A stretch of 64,000 nt of DNA from Candidatus Woesearchaeota archaeon (GTDB lineage Archaea; Nanobdellota; Nanobdellia; Woesearchaeales; GW2011-AR4): positions 62,001-126,000 of the forward strand of contig JACPMR010000012.1 of the NCBI GenBank assembly GCA_016185945.1, given 5' to 3'. The notes under the pieces are model-generated. The model ran no database searches and was not told the origin of the DNA. It was given only the letters and a program-made list of their open reading frames with translations. A program made the position numbers and the translations under genes. Positions 6,160-52,571 of the stretch are shown in pieces (the stretch's first letter is position 1; each line of letters opens with the position of its first letter).

Positions 6160-6457
6160 ATTTTAAAAATAAGAACAAACAATAAAAATTTATCTCTTTG
6201 CTTTCTTAAACAATTCCTCAACCTTTTTCCAATTGACACTAGCACTGGACAAAAAACCACTGGACATCTTCACGTGATATTTATAAAGGACTAATTCTAC
6301 CATAATATTACTAAAAGAAAAAAGCCGCTCAAAGCGGCGGAACAGGAGACTGAGACCCTCAAGAAAGTATGAATAATACTTATATATAAACCTTTGTATG
6401 CCGCGGTCGCTCAACTTGGTGGAGCGGGAGCTTGAGACCCTCCTGCCAGCAATGGCT

Positions 6458-6500
6458 GTGACATGCGAGTGAGCTCGTTGCGAACTCGCTCACAAGTCAC
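6458..6500 (+). repeat. Palindromic module X copy inside the tRNA variable region
   Basis: GTGACATGCGAG...ACTCGCTC.C.AGTCAC, near-identical to 51849-51889 inside repeat E10. Confidence 0.75.
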
Positions 6501-6510
6501 TGGGTTCAAA

Positions 6511-6541
6511 TCCGAAAGGATATGGGCCTCTTGGGTGAAAA
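6511..6541 (+). other. Predicted archaeal tRNA intron at position 59/60 (T-loop)
   Basis: BHB: outer helix CUGGG/CCCAG, 3-nt bulges AAU and AAU, central 4-bp UUCA/UGAA; excision restores CUGGGUUCAAAUCCCAG. Confidence 0.75.
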
Positions 6542-6558
6542 TCCCAGCCGCGGCGCAT

Positions 6559-6643
6559 AATTTAAAAGAAGAAAAAATACCTTATGTCGAAAAATGGTTA
6601 AACAATGGAAAACAGAGATATGATTATTTTGCATTCTCATAAT
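6559..6643 (+). pseudogene. C-terminal remnant of a LAGLIDADG homing endonuclease
   Basis: Translation NLKEEKIPYVEKWLNNGKQRYDYFAFS* matches KLKEKKIKYVYNWLNNGK at the C-terminus of the 7725-8549 endonuclease. Confidence 0.65.
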
Positions 6644-6686
6644 TTTTATTAACTTGCTTCCAATTTACCACATTCCACCATGTTTT

Positions 6687-7472
6687 TTAAGTTTGACTAT
6701 TTTCAATAGACTTTGGGATATAATAACCTTGGGACATCATTTGGAGTATTCTCTCTTTATTTTGTGGAATGATAAGATTATCGTATTTTTCAATCATCTC
6801 TTTGATAAGTTTTTGGCAACCACGTGCATTATATACTTGATTATTAATGGCACTGTTAGCAATAATTGCATTAATATGTTCTTCACTAAATGGCTTCAAA
6901 GATAATAATAATTCAAAATGTTTTTCTGCATCTCTAAATGTCCAAGCGTTTTCGAGACTTGTAATTAAACAATCCCTTATATTTTCTTTAAACTCAGGTC
7001 TTTCAGCAAGGAATTCTATTATCTTAAATATTTCTTCATGACAATAAATTTCTTCTTTATTAGTAGTGTAATTTTTAGATACCGTATATTTAAAATTTCT
7101 AAATGCTTGAAATTTTTCCATAAATCCATAAGGTAGTGTTTCATCAATTGATACAGGAACAATAAATTTTGAGAATGATATTGCTAAACCAGTTTCTTGA
7201 TCAGTCCATTTAGATGTATGAAAATTTGAAGATAAAAGGACTATGAAAATATCTGATGATTTCAAGTTTTTTATAATTTCATTAGGCCAATCTTCTCCCG
7301 GAGGAATGTCATCATGAGCTAAAAAAACTTGGATACCATAGTGATTTAGTGCCTCTTTTATCCCACTAGCAATATTCTTATCTCTATCAGAATAACTAAT
7401 AAACGTCCTAAGTGTCTTGGGAGTGAATATATTTGATTTTACTTTAAAAAAATCTTTAGTTTCAATAAACAT
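6687..7472 (-). CDS. TIR-domain protein
   Basis: LRTFISYSDRDKNIASGIKEALNHYGIQVFLAHDDIPPGEDWPNEIIKNLKSSDIFIVLLSSNFHTSKWTDQE is TIR-like. Confidence 0.85.
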   Translation of the reverse strand: MFIETKDFFKVKSNIFTPKTLRTFISYSDRDKNIASGIKEALNHYGIQVFLAHDDIPPGEDWPNEIIKNLKSSDIFIVLLSSNFHTSKWTDQETGLAISFSKFIVPVSIDETLPYGFMEKFQAFRNFKYTVSKNYTTNKEEIYCHEEIFKIIEFLAERPEFKENIRDCLITSLENAWTFRDAEKHFELLLSLKPFSEEHINAIIANSAINNQVYNARGCQKLIKEMIEKYDNLIIPQNKERILQMMSQGYYIPKSIENSQT

Positions 7473-7684
7473 TTTTTATTCAATTATATTAGAAAGTTTA
7501 TTATTATATAAATCTATAGAGTTGATTATAACTACGACCACTGGACATCCTTGCCTAAAATATATAAACCCATTCTCTATCTAAAATTAAAAAAGAGAAC
7601 ACGCAAAACTGCTAAATTAAGTTTTTCGGCTTTCAGCACGAAAATCTTTTACGCAGTTCCGCTTAACATTCTCTTTTTCCTGAA

Positions 7685-7720
7685 CTCCAAAGTTTTGTGG
7701 AAAAATAAAAAACTTTGGAG
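7685..7720 (+). promoter_or_regulatory. Perfect 12-bp inverted repeat whose 3' arm includes most of the Shine-Dalgarno of the homing endonuclease gene
   Basis: CTCCAAAGTTTT (7685-7696) / AAAACTTTGGAG (7709-7720), followed by G and TTGATG. Confidence 0.7.
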
Positions 7721-7724
7721 GTTG

Positions 7725-8549
7725 ATGAAAATGAATATTAAGACAAAACATGAATTGAGAACAGAAGCTTACGAACTACTTAATAAACTCAAGCAAAGTG
7801 GCATTCCTAAGAAAGAGGTCATAAGTAAAGTTAGCAACCAATTTGGGATACCTTATGGTACATTATATGGGTGGTATCAGTATAATCTTTCTCCTTTTGG
7901 TAAAAGAAAAATTCAATATAATAAAGAGATATTTTATGTTTTAGGCGCTCTTTTAGGTGATGGATGTCCTTACTATTGGAAAAAAGGACAACAGCAAATG
8001 GTTATAATTGCAGGAGAAGAAGATTTTATTAATAAATTTTCTGAAAAACTTTCAAAGTGTATTGACAGGAGAATAAAGGGGTATCTAAATAGAAGTAATA
8101 GCACATGGCATCTTAGAACATACAACATCGAGTTATATCAATTATTCATAAAAGTGCGAAAGGATTTAGATTTTCTATCGTCCCTTCTTAAATACGGCAA
8201 TTATCATGAGAATTCCTTAGAGATTATAGAAGGCTTTTTCGATGCGGAAGGTTGTATTAAAATTATAAAAGAAAAAGTAAGAAGAAAAACTCCTAAAATA
8301 TGTCCTGATATTTGCTGCACAAATTATGAAATTTTAGAGTTGATAAGGAAACTTTTGCAAGAGCAACTCAATATCGAAGCTAGATATTCAATACAGAAAG
8401 CAGACAACATTAAAAATAAGAAAATCGCTTATCATCTTAGAATTTATAAAAAGGAATTTGTAAGAAGATTTTTTGAGAATATAAATACTATAAAGTTAAA
8501 AGAAAAGAAAATTAAATACGTATATAATTGGCTTAATAATGGTAAATAA
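7725..8549 (+). CDS. Freestanding LAGLIDADG-type homing endonuclease with N-terminal helix-turn-helix
   Basis: YVLGALLGDG and IIEGFFDAEGCI motifs; ATG after GGAGG; ORF track gives upstream TTG at 7551 in the same frame. Confidence 0.8.
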   Translation: MKMNIKTKHELRTEAYELLNKLKQSGIPKKEVISKVSNQFGIPYGTLYGWYQYNLSPFGKRKIQYNKEIFYVLGALLGDGCPYYWKKGQQQMVIIAGEEDFINKFSEKLSKCIDRRIKGYLNRSNSTWHLRTYNIELYQLFIKVRKDLDFLSSLLKYGNYHENSLEIIEGFFDAEGCIKIIKEKVRRKTPKICPDICCTNYEILELIRKLLQEQLNIEARYSIQKADNIKNKKIAYHLRIYKKEFVRRFFENINTIKLKEKKIKYVYNWLNNGK

Positions 8550-11409: not shown

Positions 11410-11577
11410 TTTTCAATCCGCCTGCGGCGCATTTTACTGCGCGTCGGCATTCGGATGTGGAGGTTGCATTTTTTGTGCTCCTCCTCCGCGCCAATTTATT
11501 TGCCACAGTCGGGCAAACAGTCCTGAGCTGGGCTCCCATTTCACCTTTATAGATGTTGGGAAGCGACGATTTTTGAA
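11410..11577 (+). repeat. Structured intergenic repeat copy E3 (class I 3' module)
   Basis: TTTTCAATCCG...TCCTGAGCTGGGCTCCCA...TTGGGAAGCGACG..TTTTTGAA. Confidence 0.85.
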
Positions 11578-11602
11578 TTATTTTTATATTTTATTAATCT
11601 TG

Positions 11603-13887: not shown

Positions 13888-14062
13888 TTTCAATCCGTCG
13901 CCTTCGGCGACATTGGTTACGCGCCTCGGCATTCAGATGTGGAGGCAGCATTCCTTTGTGCTACTCCTCGGCGCAAAATTCATTGTAACTGCCAGCGATA
14001 CGTTCCTGAGCTGGGTTCCCATATTGCCTATGCAGTGACTGGGAAGCGACGTTGATTGAAAA
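13888..14062 (+). repeat. Structured intergenic repeat copy E4 (class I)
   Basis: TTTCAATCCGTCGCCTTCGGCGAC...TCCTGAGCTGGGTTCCCA...CTGGGAAGCGACGTTGATTGAAAA. Confidence 0.9.
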
Positions 14063-14092
14063 TTATTTTAATTCAATGCATTTAATATAATC

Positions 14093-21724: not shown

Positions 21725-21884
21725 TTTTCAATCCGTTGCTTCGCAACATATTCTTGTGCTCGGCGTTGCTGTCCTGCCACATCGCAACGCCTCGCCAATT
21801 TATTGCCACAGTCAGGCACACTTTCCTGAGCAGGGTTCCCACATCACTTTTGCTGATAGTGGGAAGCGACGTTTTTGTTGATTT
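21725..21884 (+). repeat. Structured intergenic repeat copy E6 (class I)
   Basis: TTTTCAATCCGTTGCTTCGCAAC...TCCTGAGCAGGGTTCCCA...GTGGGAAGCGACG. Confidence 0.9.
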
Positions 21885-21923
21885 TATTTTTTAAGGTGTT
21901 TATTAATTAAAATGTTTTAATAA

Positions 21924-30983: not shown

Positions 30984-31149
30984 TTTCAATCCGTCGTGCT
31001 TCGCACGACACTATCTTGGCGCCTCGGCATTCAGATGTGGAGGTTGCATTCCTTCGTGCTCCTCCTCGGCGCAAATTTATCGTATTAAACATTAAAAGCG
31101 GATTACTTTCTTAACCTTGTGAAATCACAAAGTCGCTCTCGGGATTGAA
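30984..31149 (+). repeat. Structured intergenic repeat copy E7 (E4/E8-like 5' half with class II 3' module)
   Basis: TTTCAATCCGTCGTGCTTCGCACGAC...CTCGGCATTCAGATGTGGAGG...AAAAGCGGATTACTTTC...AAAGTCGCTCTCGGGATTGAA. Confidence 0.9.
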
Positions 31150-40365: not shown

Positions 40366-40539
40366 TTTCAATCCGTCGCCTTCGGCGACATTAGTTACGC
40401 GCCTCGGCATTCAACTATAGAGGTTGCATTCCTTTGTGCTCCTCCTCGGCGCCTATCTATTTAATAATTTCAGGCAAACTTTCCTGAGCTGGGTTCCCAT
40501 ATCTTGCTTGCTGATATTGGGAAGCGACGTTGTTTGAAA
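40366..40539 (+). repeat. Structured intergenic repeat copy E8 (class I)
   Basis: TTTCAATCCGTCGCCTTCGGCGAC...TCCTGAGCTGGGTTCCCA...TTGGGAAGCGACGTTGTTTGAAA. Confidence 0.9.
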
Positions 40540-40620
40540 TTTTTATTATTGTTTTTGAAAAATATTTTAATTGAAATTTCATACCAAATCTTTTTAAACT
40601 TCTTTTGAATACTCTGCCCT

Positions 40621-47916: not shown

Positions 47917-48048
47917 TATTTACTGCTCGCTCCTCACTTCCCCGCCAATCGTTCGGAGCTCGCCTATTTATTGAAATAGTCAGGCTTACTGTCCTGAGCT
48001 GGGCTCCTTTTCCACCTTTAGAGATGCTGGGAAGCGACGTGCTTGATT
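47894..48048 (+). repeat. Structured intergenic repeat copy E9 (class I)
   Basis: TTCAATCCGTCGCTTCGCGAC...TCCTGAGCTGGGCTCC...GCTGGGAAGCGACGTGCTTGATT. Confidence 0.9.
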
Positions 48049-48081
48049 AAATTTATTGTCGGATTTTTATATTGTTGTACC

Positions 48082-49840: not shown

Positions 49841-51733
49841 TCATTTCTTCTTCCCCTTCTTCTCCTCATCCTTCACTTCATAGTCAGCATCTACAACATT
49901 ATCATCCTTTTTTGGTTTTTTTTCTTCTGTTTCTTCACTTGTTTGCTGCCCATGTTCTTGTTTATATTGCTGCCCTGCTTTCTGGTACAATTCAGTTGAC
50001 ATTCTCTGGACAAGTTCATTCACTTCATCCATCTTCCTCTTGATTGCATCAACGTCTTTCTGCTGCGGCTTCAATAACTCCTTCAATTCAAGTATCTTGC
50101 CCTTCACTTCTTCAATTTCTTTGCCTGGGACTTTGCCTTCAAAGTCCTTGAATAATTTTTCTGTTGAATACACTACGTTATCAGCTTGGTTGATTGTTTC
50201 AATCTCTTCCTTTCTTTTCCTGTCAACATCAGCAAACTCCTCTGCCTGCTTTCTCATCTTTTCAATCTCTTCTTCACTTAATTTCTGGGAAGCAGTTATC
50301 CTTATGCTTTGTTCTTTTCCAGTTCCCAAGTCCTTTGCATTGACATGCAATATTCCGTTTGCATCAATGTCAAAAGCAACCTCAATCTGGGGGATTCCTC
50401 TAGGAGCAGGCGGTATTCCTATCAAGTCAAACTGCCCCAGCAATTTGTTGTCGGCAAACATTGGCCTTTCTCCCTGCCCTACCCTTATAGTTACTGCAGT
50501 TTGGCTGTCAGCAGCTGTGCTGAATACCTGCTGCTTCTTTGTCGGAATTGTGGTGTTTCTTTCAATCAGCTTAGTAAACACCCCTCCCAATGTTTCAATC
50601 CCAAGGCTAAGCGGTGTCACATCAAGCAGCAAGATGTCCTTTACCTCGCCTGCAAGCACTCCTGCCTGAACAGCAGCACCCATTGCAACACACTCCATTG
50701 GATCAACTCCCCTTTCAGCCGGCTTTCCTATATAGTCCTCTACAAACTTCCTTACAATAGGCATTCTTGTTGGCCCGCCTACAAGGATTATCTTGTTAAT
50801 TTGATTGACAGATAATTTAGTATCCTTGATTGCCTGCTCCAATGGATGCCTGCATCTCTTGATTATCGGCTCAATCAGCTGCTCAAGCTTTGCTCTTGTC
50901 AATTTCATTGTTAAATGCTTTGGCCCTTCGTCTGTTGCTGTTATGAAAGGCAGGTTAATGTCAGTTTCAAAGACAGTAGAAAGCTCAATCTTTGCCTTTT
51001 CAGCTGCCTCTCTTAACCTTTGCATTGCTGTCTTGTCCTTGCTTAAGTCAATGCCTTCTGTCTTCTTGAACTCGGAAGCAAGGTAATCAACCAAATTTTG
51101 GTCCATGTCAGTTCCGCCAAGCTGGGTGTCTCCAGATGTAGACAACACTTGGAAAACCCCATCGCCAAACTCCATTATTGTAACGTCCAAAGTTCCCCCG
51201 CCCAAATCAAATACAAGAATCTTAAGCTGCTTATCCTGCTTGTCTATGCCATAAGCCATTGAAGCGGATGTTGGCTCATTGACTATTCTTACAACTTCAA
51301 GTCCTGCAATCTCTCCTGCATCCTTTGTTGCCTGCCTCTGGTTGTCGTCAAAATAAGCAGGGACTGTAATCACTGCTTTGTTTATTTTCTCTCCCAAAAA
51401 TTCCTCTGAATCTTTTTTTATTTTTTGAAGAATGAATGCAGATATTTGTTGTGGTGTATACTCTTTGCCGTCAATCACGTACTTGTGCGTAGTGCCCATC
51501 TTTCGCTTTGCAGCCATTATTGTTTTTTCAGGATTGGAAACTGCCTGCCTTCTGGCCGGCTCTCCTACTAAAACTTGCCCGTCTTTTGTGAATGCAACTA
51601 CGCTTGGAAACGCCTTTCCATATGCAGTTGTGCCCTCTGCGCTGGGAATTATAGTTGGCTTTCCTGCCTGCAAAACTGCAGCTGCGCTGTTGCTTGTACC
51701 CAAATCAATTCCAATGATTTTTTCCTTTGCCAT
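49841..51733 (-). CDS. dnaK: Chaperone DnaK
   Basis: [45 protein letters not shown]. Confidence 0.98.
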
Positions 51734-51783: not shown

Positions 51784-52041
51784 CTTCAATCCGAAAATTC
51801 GCTTTGCGAATTTTCAATAGTTACAGCTCGGCTTTCGCTTCCCTGCCAGTGACATGCGAGGCTCGCGAAGAGACTCGCTCGCCAGTCACCCGCTCAAGCC
51901 TCGCCTATTAATTCAATGAATTCAGGCGTACTTCCCTGAGCTGGGTTCCCATCAACGACAAAGTTCGTTGACACCTTGTGCAAGTGGGATTTGCAATCCC
52001 ACGGACTTTGCAGATGCTGGGAAGCGAATATTTTTTGAAAT
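51784..52041 (+). repeat. Structured intergenic repeat copy E10 (class I, expanded by nested modules X and Y)
   Basis: TTCAATCCGAAAATTCGCTTTGCGAATTTTC...CCTGAGCTGGGTTCCCA...GCTGGGAAGCGA...TTTTTTGAAA. Confidence 0.9.
51849..51889 (+). repeat. Palindromic module X copy nested in E10
   Basis: GTGACATGCGAGGCTCGCGAAGAGACTCGCTCGCCAGTCAC, matches tRNA insert at 6458-6500. Confidence 0.75.
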
Positions 52042-52073: not shown

Positions 52074-52571
52074 TTATTTCCCGCTAATCTTTACTTTGCT
52101 GTGCCTCAAAACCTTGTCATTGAGCATATACCCTTTCTGGAATTCCTCCAGAATTGTTTCTTCGGGCTTGTCTGATTCCTCTTTCATCAAAACCTCGTGC
52201 TTGTATGGGTCGAATTTTTCTCCAGTTGCTTTTATCGGCTTCAAGCCTTCTGCCTCAAGCACAGAGTAAAGCTGCGCATAAATGATTTTGATGCCTTCAA
52301 TGAATTTTTCTTTTTCTGTTGTGTTTTTTAACGCTATTTCAAAGCTATCAAGCACAGGCAAAAGCTGTGCAATCACATCAGCATGAGCAAATTTTACAAA
52401 CTCTGTTTTTTCCTTGTCAACCCTCTTTTTGTAATTCTCAAACTCTGCCTGAAGTCTTTTCAAAGTGTCTGTCAACTCTTCGATTTTTTGATTTTTTTCT
52501 TCGAGCTGTTTTTTTAATGAATCTTTCTCGTCTGTTTTTTTCTCTTCCTTCGCTTCTTTTTTCGGTTCCAT
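52074..52571 (-). CDS. grpE: Nucleotide exchange factor GrpE
   Basis: LKRLQAEFENYKKRVDKEK; LRHSKVKIS. Confidence 0.95.
   Translation of the reverse strand: MEPKKEAKEEKKTDEKDSLKKQLEEKNQKIEELTDTLKRLQAEFENYKKRVDKEKTEFVKFAHADVIAQLLPVLDSFEIALKNTTEKEKFIEGIKIIYAQLYSVLEAEGLKPIKATGEKFDPYKHEVLMKEESDKPEETILEEFQKGYMLNDKVLRHSKVKISGK

Follow-up and report, generated by a model that had tools for sequence, protein, structure and literature searches.

The window analyzed here, a 64,000-nucleotide stretch of the genome of a Candidatus Woesearchaeota archaeon (G000), contains two copies of a short self-complementary sequence (Table 1). One is nested in the palindromic repeat E10, which lies between grpE (52074-52571) and dnaK (49841-51733), both on the minus strand and named by reading of their translations; the other lies within a class II tRNA gene that has a gene for a TIR-domain protein (6687-7472, minus strand) directly downstream. 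Both sequences quoted in the original prediction are present on the plus strand, 41 nt long in E10 and 43 nt in the tRNA gene, and both fold as hairpins. Its statement that they are the same module is right for the two ends, GTGACATGCGAG and CTCGCTC(A/G)C..GTCAC, which are common to both, and wrong for the copies as wholes, which belong to different subtypes. The CTGCCAG that it saw as a common context is coincidental; the host hairpin of E10 has CTGCCA as its tip, and in the tRNA gene CTGCCAG is part of the variable-arm stem GCCA-GCAA-TGGC, of which the counterpart in relatives, whether filled or empty, is GCTC..GAGC or GCTG..CAGC.

Table 1. Copies of the hairpin element in the window and the structures that hold or lack them
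Feature	Position	Strand	Basis
Element copy, E10 subtype, GTGACATGCGAGGCTCGCGAAGAGACTCGCTCGCCAGTCAC	51849..51889	+	Covariance model, 47.6 bits (L163)
Arms of the hairpin that holds the E10 copy, GCTCGGCTTTCGCTTCCCTGCCA and CCGCTCAAGCCTCGCC	51827..51908	+	Paralogues with empty tip at 21756 and 47925
Empty host hairpin, E-family paralogue, tip CCGCCA/AT without module	47925..47967	+	
Empty host hairpin, E-family paralogue, tip CTGCCA/CA without module	21756..21799	+	
Host tRNA gene, class II, long variable arm	6400..6555	+	Rfam RF00005, 26.2 bits; MFE fold; conserved family in relatives
Acceptor stem of host tRNA, with G73 at 6555	6400-6406/6548-6554	+	
Element copy in tRNA gene	6458..6500	+	Covariance model, 63.9 bits (L148); insert-free alleles in 16 homologous tRNAs
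T-loop putative bulge-helix-bulge intron, 31 nt	6511..6541	+	Read from sequence and alignment

Exact search of the 1.506-Mb genome gives 24 matches to GTGACATGCGAG (12 per strand) and none to the reversed pattern, which excludes chance; only the two copies of Table 1 lie in the window. It marks a hairpin element with a core of 35–48 nt and no ORF of its own, and longer forms (up to ∼115 nt) are nested composites with a further hairpin in the loop. A covariance model built from 24 copies finds 58 matches at ∼49 distinct places in the same genome, so the genome-wide search that had been proposed as a check shows the element to be multicopy. Most other members of the genus (all genomes, that of the window included, are draft MAGs) have 1–62 matches; the richest genomes in this search were G009 (62), that of the window (56, the second-highest count in the genus), G018 (48) and G002 (39). 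For further analysis 153 distinct copies were extracted with their flanks, ∼49 from the window's own genome and 104 from relatives; those from relatives were the highest-scoring ones, a choice that disfavors weak or decayed copies. Their ends are inverted, (CA)GTGAC...GTCAC(TG) with variants (the form CAGTGACATG...GTCACTG among them), and thus comprise 5-bp terminal inverted repeats GTGAC/GTCAC that are often extended to CA..TG. The hairpin stem is conserved and hardly varies, so that covariation is weak and does not point clearly to a role of the hairpin as RNA; the folding energies of the two strands show small biases that are opposite under RNA and DNA parameters, and for this reason no claim is made as to which strand folds.

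The element stays within one family of Woesearchaeota. Among 60 related genomes most other members of the genus have GTGACATGCGAG, as do four genomes from other genera in the family; the 24 other families of the order have none, and control matches were zero throughout. A longer 20-mer, GTGACATGCGAGTGAGCTCG, matches 18 contigs in GTDB species genomes, every one of them with Woesearchaeota or Nanoarchaeota in its title. Two patterns searched against 2.9 million viral contigs (IMG/VR) gave no match, and viral carriage was rejected on this ground.

The host tRNA gene of the window falls below the 29-bit Rfam cut-off because it carries two inserts; Rfam at its curated thresholds reports nothing in the window, and ARAGORN with intron options reports no tRNA at 6300-6700. 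The tRNA family is nevertheless conserved in relatives, and its variable-arm stem shows compensatory changes. BLAST and alignment with relatives place the element exactly between the variable arm and the T stem; C6500 does double duty as the base that opens the T stem, which leaves 6458-6499 (42 nt) as the insert itself. The anticodon loop, TTGAGAC, reads GAG or UGA and is accompanied by G73. Four paralogous class II tRNA-like genes of G001 (on C12, C3, C16 and C6) also have G73 and unusual anticodon loops, of which TTCAGAA, CTAAGAC, CTGATAC and TTGACAC are examples.

Four tRNAs of this family are filled (those of the window, G012:C9, G012:C1 and G006:C4), and the insert-free allele that had been proposed as a test was found in 16 homologous tRNAs. 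The nearest body of each of the four filled tRNAs is an empty tRNA of another genome (87–93% identical), and the elements of the window and G012:C1 are identical at 42 of 42 positions over tRNA bodies that are only 76% identical. These relationships argue for repeated insertion at one tRNA site, rather than for the possibility raised beforehand that the variable arm of distant relatives contains the segment as a conserved portion. When the 42 nt are deleted in silico, all 38 other predicted base pairs of the window tRNA are unchanged. The idea of a tiny self-complementary element that inserts without disrupting folding is thus supported by its copy number, by the empty tRNAs, by the pairs kept and by the empty tips of the E10 paralogues.

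The window's genome has another class II tRNA (C2:2885, with UAA as its anticodon on reading of the sequence) that is filled at this site too, whereas C9:124684, its paralogue, is empty. Altogether 8 of the 153 copies lie in tRNA genes, as against ∼0.6 expected from estimates of tRNA count and length; six are at the border of variable arm and T stem, and two are inside tRNA introns at hairpin tips. The hosts of these two are a tRNA-His of G009 (L277) and a gene that looks like a tRNA-Pro, with a weak tmRNA as its best Rfam match (L187). The second insert in the window tRNA, in the T loop, has a central helix TTCA/TGAA with 3-nt bulges AAT and AAT and is kept in most homologues, insert-free ones among them; it is probably a bulge-helix-bulge (BHB) intron separate from the element. 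Similar T-loop inserts are present elsewhere in the genome, in the class II tRNAs at C2:2885, C9:124684 and C13:12812. In G010 a homologous tRNA (C4:2486-2658, L110) has a different, larger hairpin in its T loop, suggesting that other hairpin families may also enter tRNA genes.

The E10 copy occupies the tip of another hairpin, and the two empty paralogues in the window show such a tip without it. The three read CCGCCA/AT/CGTTCGG (47925), CTGCCA/CA/TCGCAACG (21756) and CTGCCA/element/CCGCTC (E10). A filled counterpart of the hairpin at 21756 is found at G000:C5:45211, and a second copy of the E10 subtype lies in a like host at G000:C24:30990. Bases −2 and −1 outside the element are mostly CA (112 and 113 of the 153 copies), and in 43 copies (28%) the flanks pair exactly over 6 bp or more directly outside the element, against a mean of 4.75% and a maximum of 11.2% in 300 permutations of the left and right flanks. 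This complementarity is far above chance, which indicates that other hairpins hold many of the copies in their tips; the remaining 72% have no long exact flanking stem. At four loci the nesting involves the element itself, a full copy being found in the loop of an inner hairpin that is in turn within a host hairpin.

The window contains larger composite palindromes of the E family (11439-11583, 13888-14070, 21756-21886, 31006-31078, 40366-40548, 47925-48054 and 51827-52027); they form several families with common blocks such as CCTGAGCTGGGTTCCCAT and TGGGAAGCGA. In the tRNA-His intron mentioned above (G009:C1) the mobile hairpin is nested in the tip of a AACGGCAAAGTCCGTTGACACCTTG repeat, a repeat that also occurs in the window at 51942 and 56564.

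Copies are also present in frame in protein-coding genes, which, like the nesting of the element in its own copies, goes beyond the original prediction. Nine sites with ten copies were confirmed, all in relatives and none in the genome of the window. They are in genes for GT2 glycosyltransferases (two sites), phosphatidylserine decarboxylase, phosphomannomutase, TruB/Cbf5, a pyruvate-dehydrogenase-type E2, YchF, ProRS (at the N terminus in two genomes, L246 and, by matching sequence, L247) and ribosomal protein S3 (in the tail). In ychF of G002 there is an in-frame insert of exactly 39 nt, SNASELVRTRSQL, whose translation would contain SNASELVRTRSQLT; the gene is 1233 nt long, compared with 1194 nt (1191 in one case) in the full-length orthologues of the genus, all of which lack the insert. 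An archaeal structure (1wxq) has an alignment gap at this point, and AlphaFold2 predicts the inserted residues 285–297 as a low-confidence loop (pLDDT below 50 at 286–297) in a protein that is otherwise mostly confident. Eight of the ten protein-gene copies are of the GTCGAA subtype, which in one additional frame is free of the stop codon that the GTGAC form has; this subtype has 8 of its 23 copies in protein genes, the others 2 of 130 (Fisher p = 3e-6). Other ORFs that span copies (e.g., L152 and L153) were judged spurious and left out of the counts. A membrane-protein-like ORF without a Pfam match in G009 (C17, L276) possibly contains an antisense in-frame copy and, if real, may be an exception to the sense orientation of copies in genes described below.

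The element resembles several known kinds of short repeats, compared here by description and not by homology. Rickettsia palindromic elements, of ∼150 bp, lie in frame in unrelated housekeeping genes, where they are tolerated as peptide, and between genes (PMC10969869); the present element is likewise dispersed, in frame in unrelated protein genes and intergenic, but it is archaeal and only 35–48 nt long, and its hosts include tRNA genes and the tips of hairpins. REPs are palindromic, multicopy repeats of 20–40 bp, partly intragenic, of which the CGTC class has no dedicated transposase (PMC3733652). They are similar in size, symmetry, copy number and partial location inside genes, but none of the 153 copies has a terminal GTAG or CGTC tag, no RAYT/Y1 association is seen, and hairpin tips and tRNA genes are the targets. 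The mitochondrial hairpin elements of fungi and sponges are described as short, conserved in the stem, present between genes and in RNA genes, and kept in transcripts (PMC2800124). The likeness to them is in behavior only, namely insertion into structural RNA genes without flanking duplication; they are organellar and of other sequences, and as far as the account drawn on here extends, in-frame insertion into many housekeeping genes and systematic nesting set the archaeal element apart. Its 5-bp terminal inverted repeats are MITE-like. Like archaeal BHB introns it interrupts tRNA genes, as those introns do at variable positions, but it has a plain 5-bp end helix and occurs in protein genes and intergenic DNA as well. 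In its length, in its ends and in showing no apparent target duplication and no link to a transposase, it thus fits none of the REP, Rickettsia or mitochondrial kinds, and no report of it in connection with archaea, Woesearchaeota or DPANN was found among open-licence papers.

That this is a mobile element is shown by its dispersal in many copies, by its empty alleles, by its nesting in itself and by the identity of elements whose hosts have diverged. It seems quite probable that it is a non-autonomous, non-coding mobile hairpin of ∼35–48 nt belonging to one Woesearchaeota family. Insertion is apparently tolerated because the element folds on itself and leaves its surroundings intact. No clear target duplication is present at the YchF, tRNA and hairpin sites, and the YchF flanks share only ACTG. 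Copies in genes are all in the sense orientation (9 of 9 confirmed protein sites and 8 of 8 tRNA sites), whereas those between co-directional genes are 26 sense to 26 antisense, so the genic bias looks like the result of selection, as for open reading frames, or of a match to CTG at the right junction and not of movement at the RNA level; it was accordingly set aside as evidence for an RNA route.

Three kinds of enzyme were considered as mobilizers. IS200-type Y1 transposase genes (PF01797) are present in 9 of the 20 genus genomes and reverse transcriptase genes in 5 of 20; neither tracks copy number (Mann-Whitney p = 0.91 for Y1; rank test for reverse transcriptase), and both were rejected. 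LAGLIDADG genes were rejected also, as every genome of the genus has 3–18 of them, including one without copies of the element. These results, together with the lack of orientation bias between genes, favor insertion at the DNA level. LAGLIDADG_3 proteins are encoded ∼1 kb from the filled tRNA gene of the window (7551-8549) and just downstream of the filled ychF (L189:1991-2854), and a reverse transcriptase domain split over two reading frames is found in the window's own genome at G000:C7:2831-3455.

The mechanism we propose, to which we give nearly even but not better confidence, is that the element would be copied and pasted as DNA into hairpin tips that are exposed, or where the target matches its ends over a few bases (CA at left, CTG at right), either by a trans-acting enzyme or by replication template switching between hairpin tips. 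Selection in genes would then keep only those insertions that give a tRNA one more folded-out arm or, once translated, give a protein a short flexible loop. It is possible, though somewhat less likely than not, that the element stands for a class that targets the unpaired tips of DNA or RNA hairpins and spreads without a recognizable transposase or reverse transcriptase, its palindromes coming to lie within other palindromes, tRNA arms and protein loops.

A passive process might also be imagined, in which template switching or gene conversion between similar palindromes exchanges their tips and spreads the sequence. Tips are replaced as much as inserted into (a loop of AT or CA is swapped for the module), copies are nested, and identical inverted ends should ease switching in and out; however, ychF and the other protein-gene sites had no pre-existing long palindrome, and none of 18 GTCGAA copies has a 6-bp flanking stem. 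This explanation is less likely than not. IS200/IS605-type (HUH, Y1) enzymes handle small palindromes without target duplications and prefer hairpins, properties that match this element, and a REP- or MITE-like sequence might be moved in trans by such a transposase recognizing single-stranded hairpins, much as REPs have been linked to RAYT transposases (PMC3733652). With no Y1 match in the genome of the window or in G009, the two with the highest copy numbers, and with neither type of REP tag on the element, Y1 mobilization is unlikely in spite of the Y1 genes elsewhere in the genus. Spread at the RNA level, by ligation or reverse splicing of the hairpin into RNAs by the tRNA splicing machinery and return to DNA by reverse transcriptase, would account for the uniform sense orientation in genes and the missing target duplications, and the Allomyces mitochondrial elements, reported to lack flanking duplications, have had an RNA intermediate suggested for them on that basis (PMC2800124); the even orientation between genes, the few genomes with a reverse transcriptase and the other explanations of the genic bias given above make it distinctly improbable here. 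That the tRNA insert is itself a BHB intron and the other copies unrelated look-alikes is hardly credible, even though archaeal tRNA introns are known at many positions and the same tRNA has a real-looking one in its T loop, because no 3-4-3 BHB motif is made by its ends, either on reading of the sequence or in the fold, its 42 nt recur unchanged in a tRNA of another genome and match an intergenic and coding family, and the protein-gene copies keep frame, which an excised intron need not do.

The preferred reading is thus that of a mobile hairpin inserted at the DNA level. If it is true, an element of 42 nt that enters tRNA genes, essential protein genes in frame, and hairpin tips would be among the smallest mobile elements known. 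It would also be a concrete case of tRNA genes and proteins gaining inserts, apparently without loss of function. The filled and empty alleles spread through the genus could serve as a test set for how palindromic repeats move, those of the Rickettsia type included.
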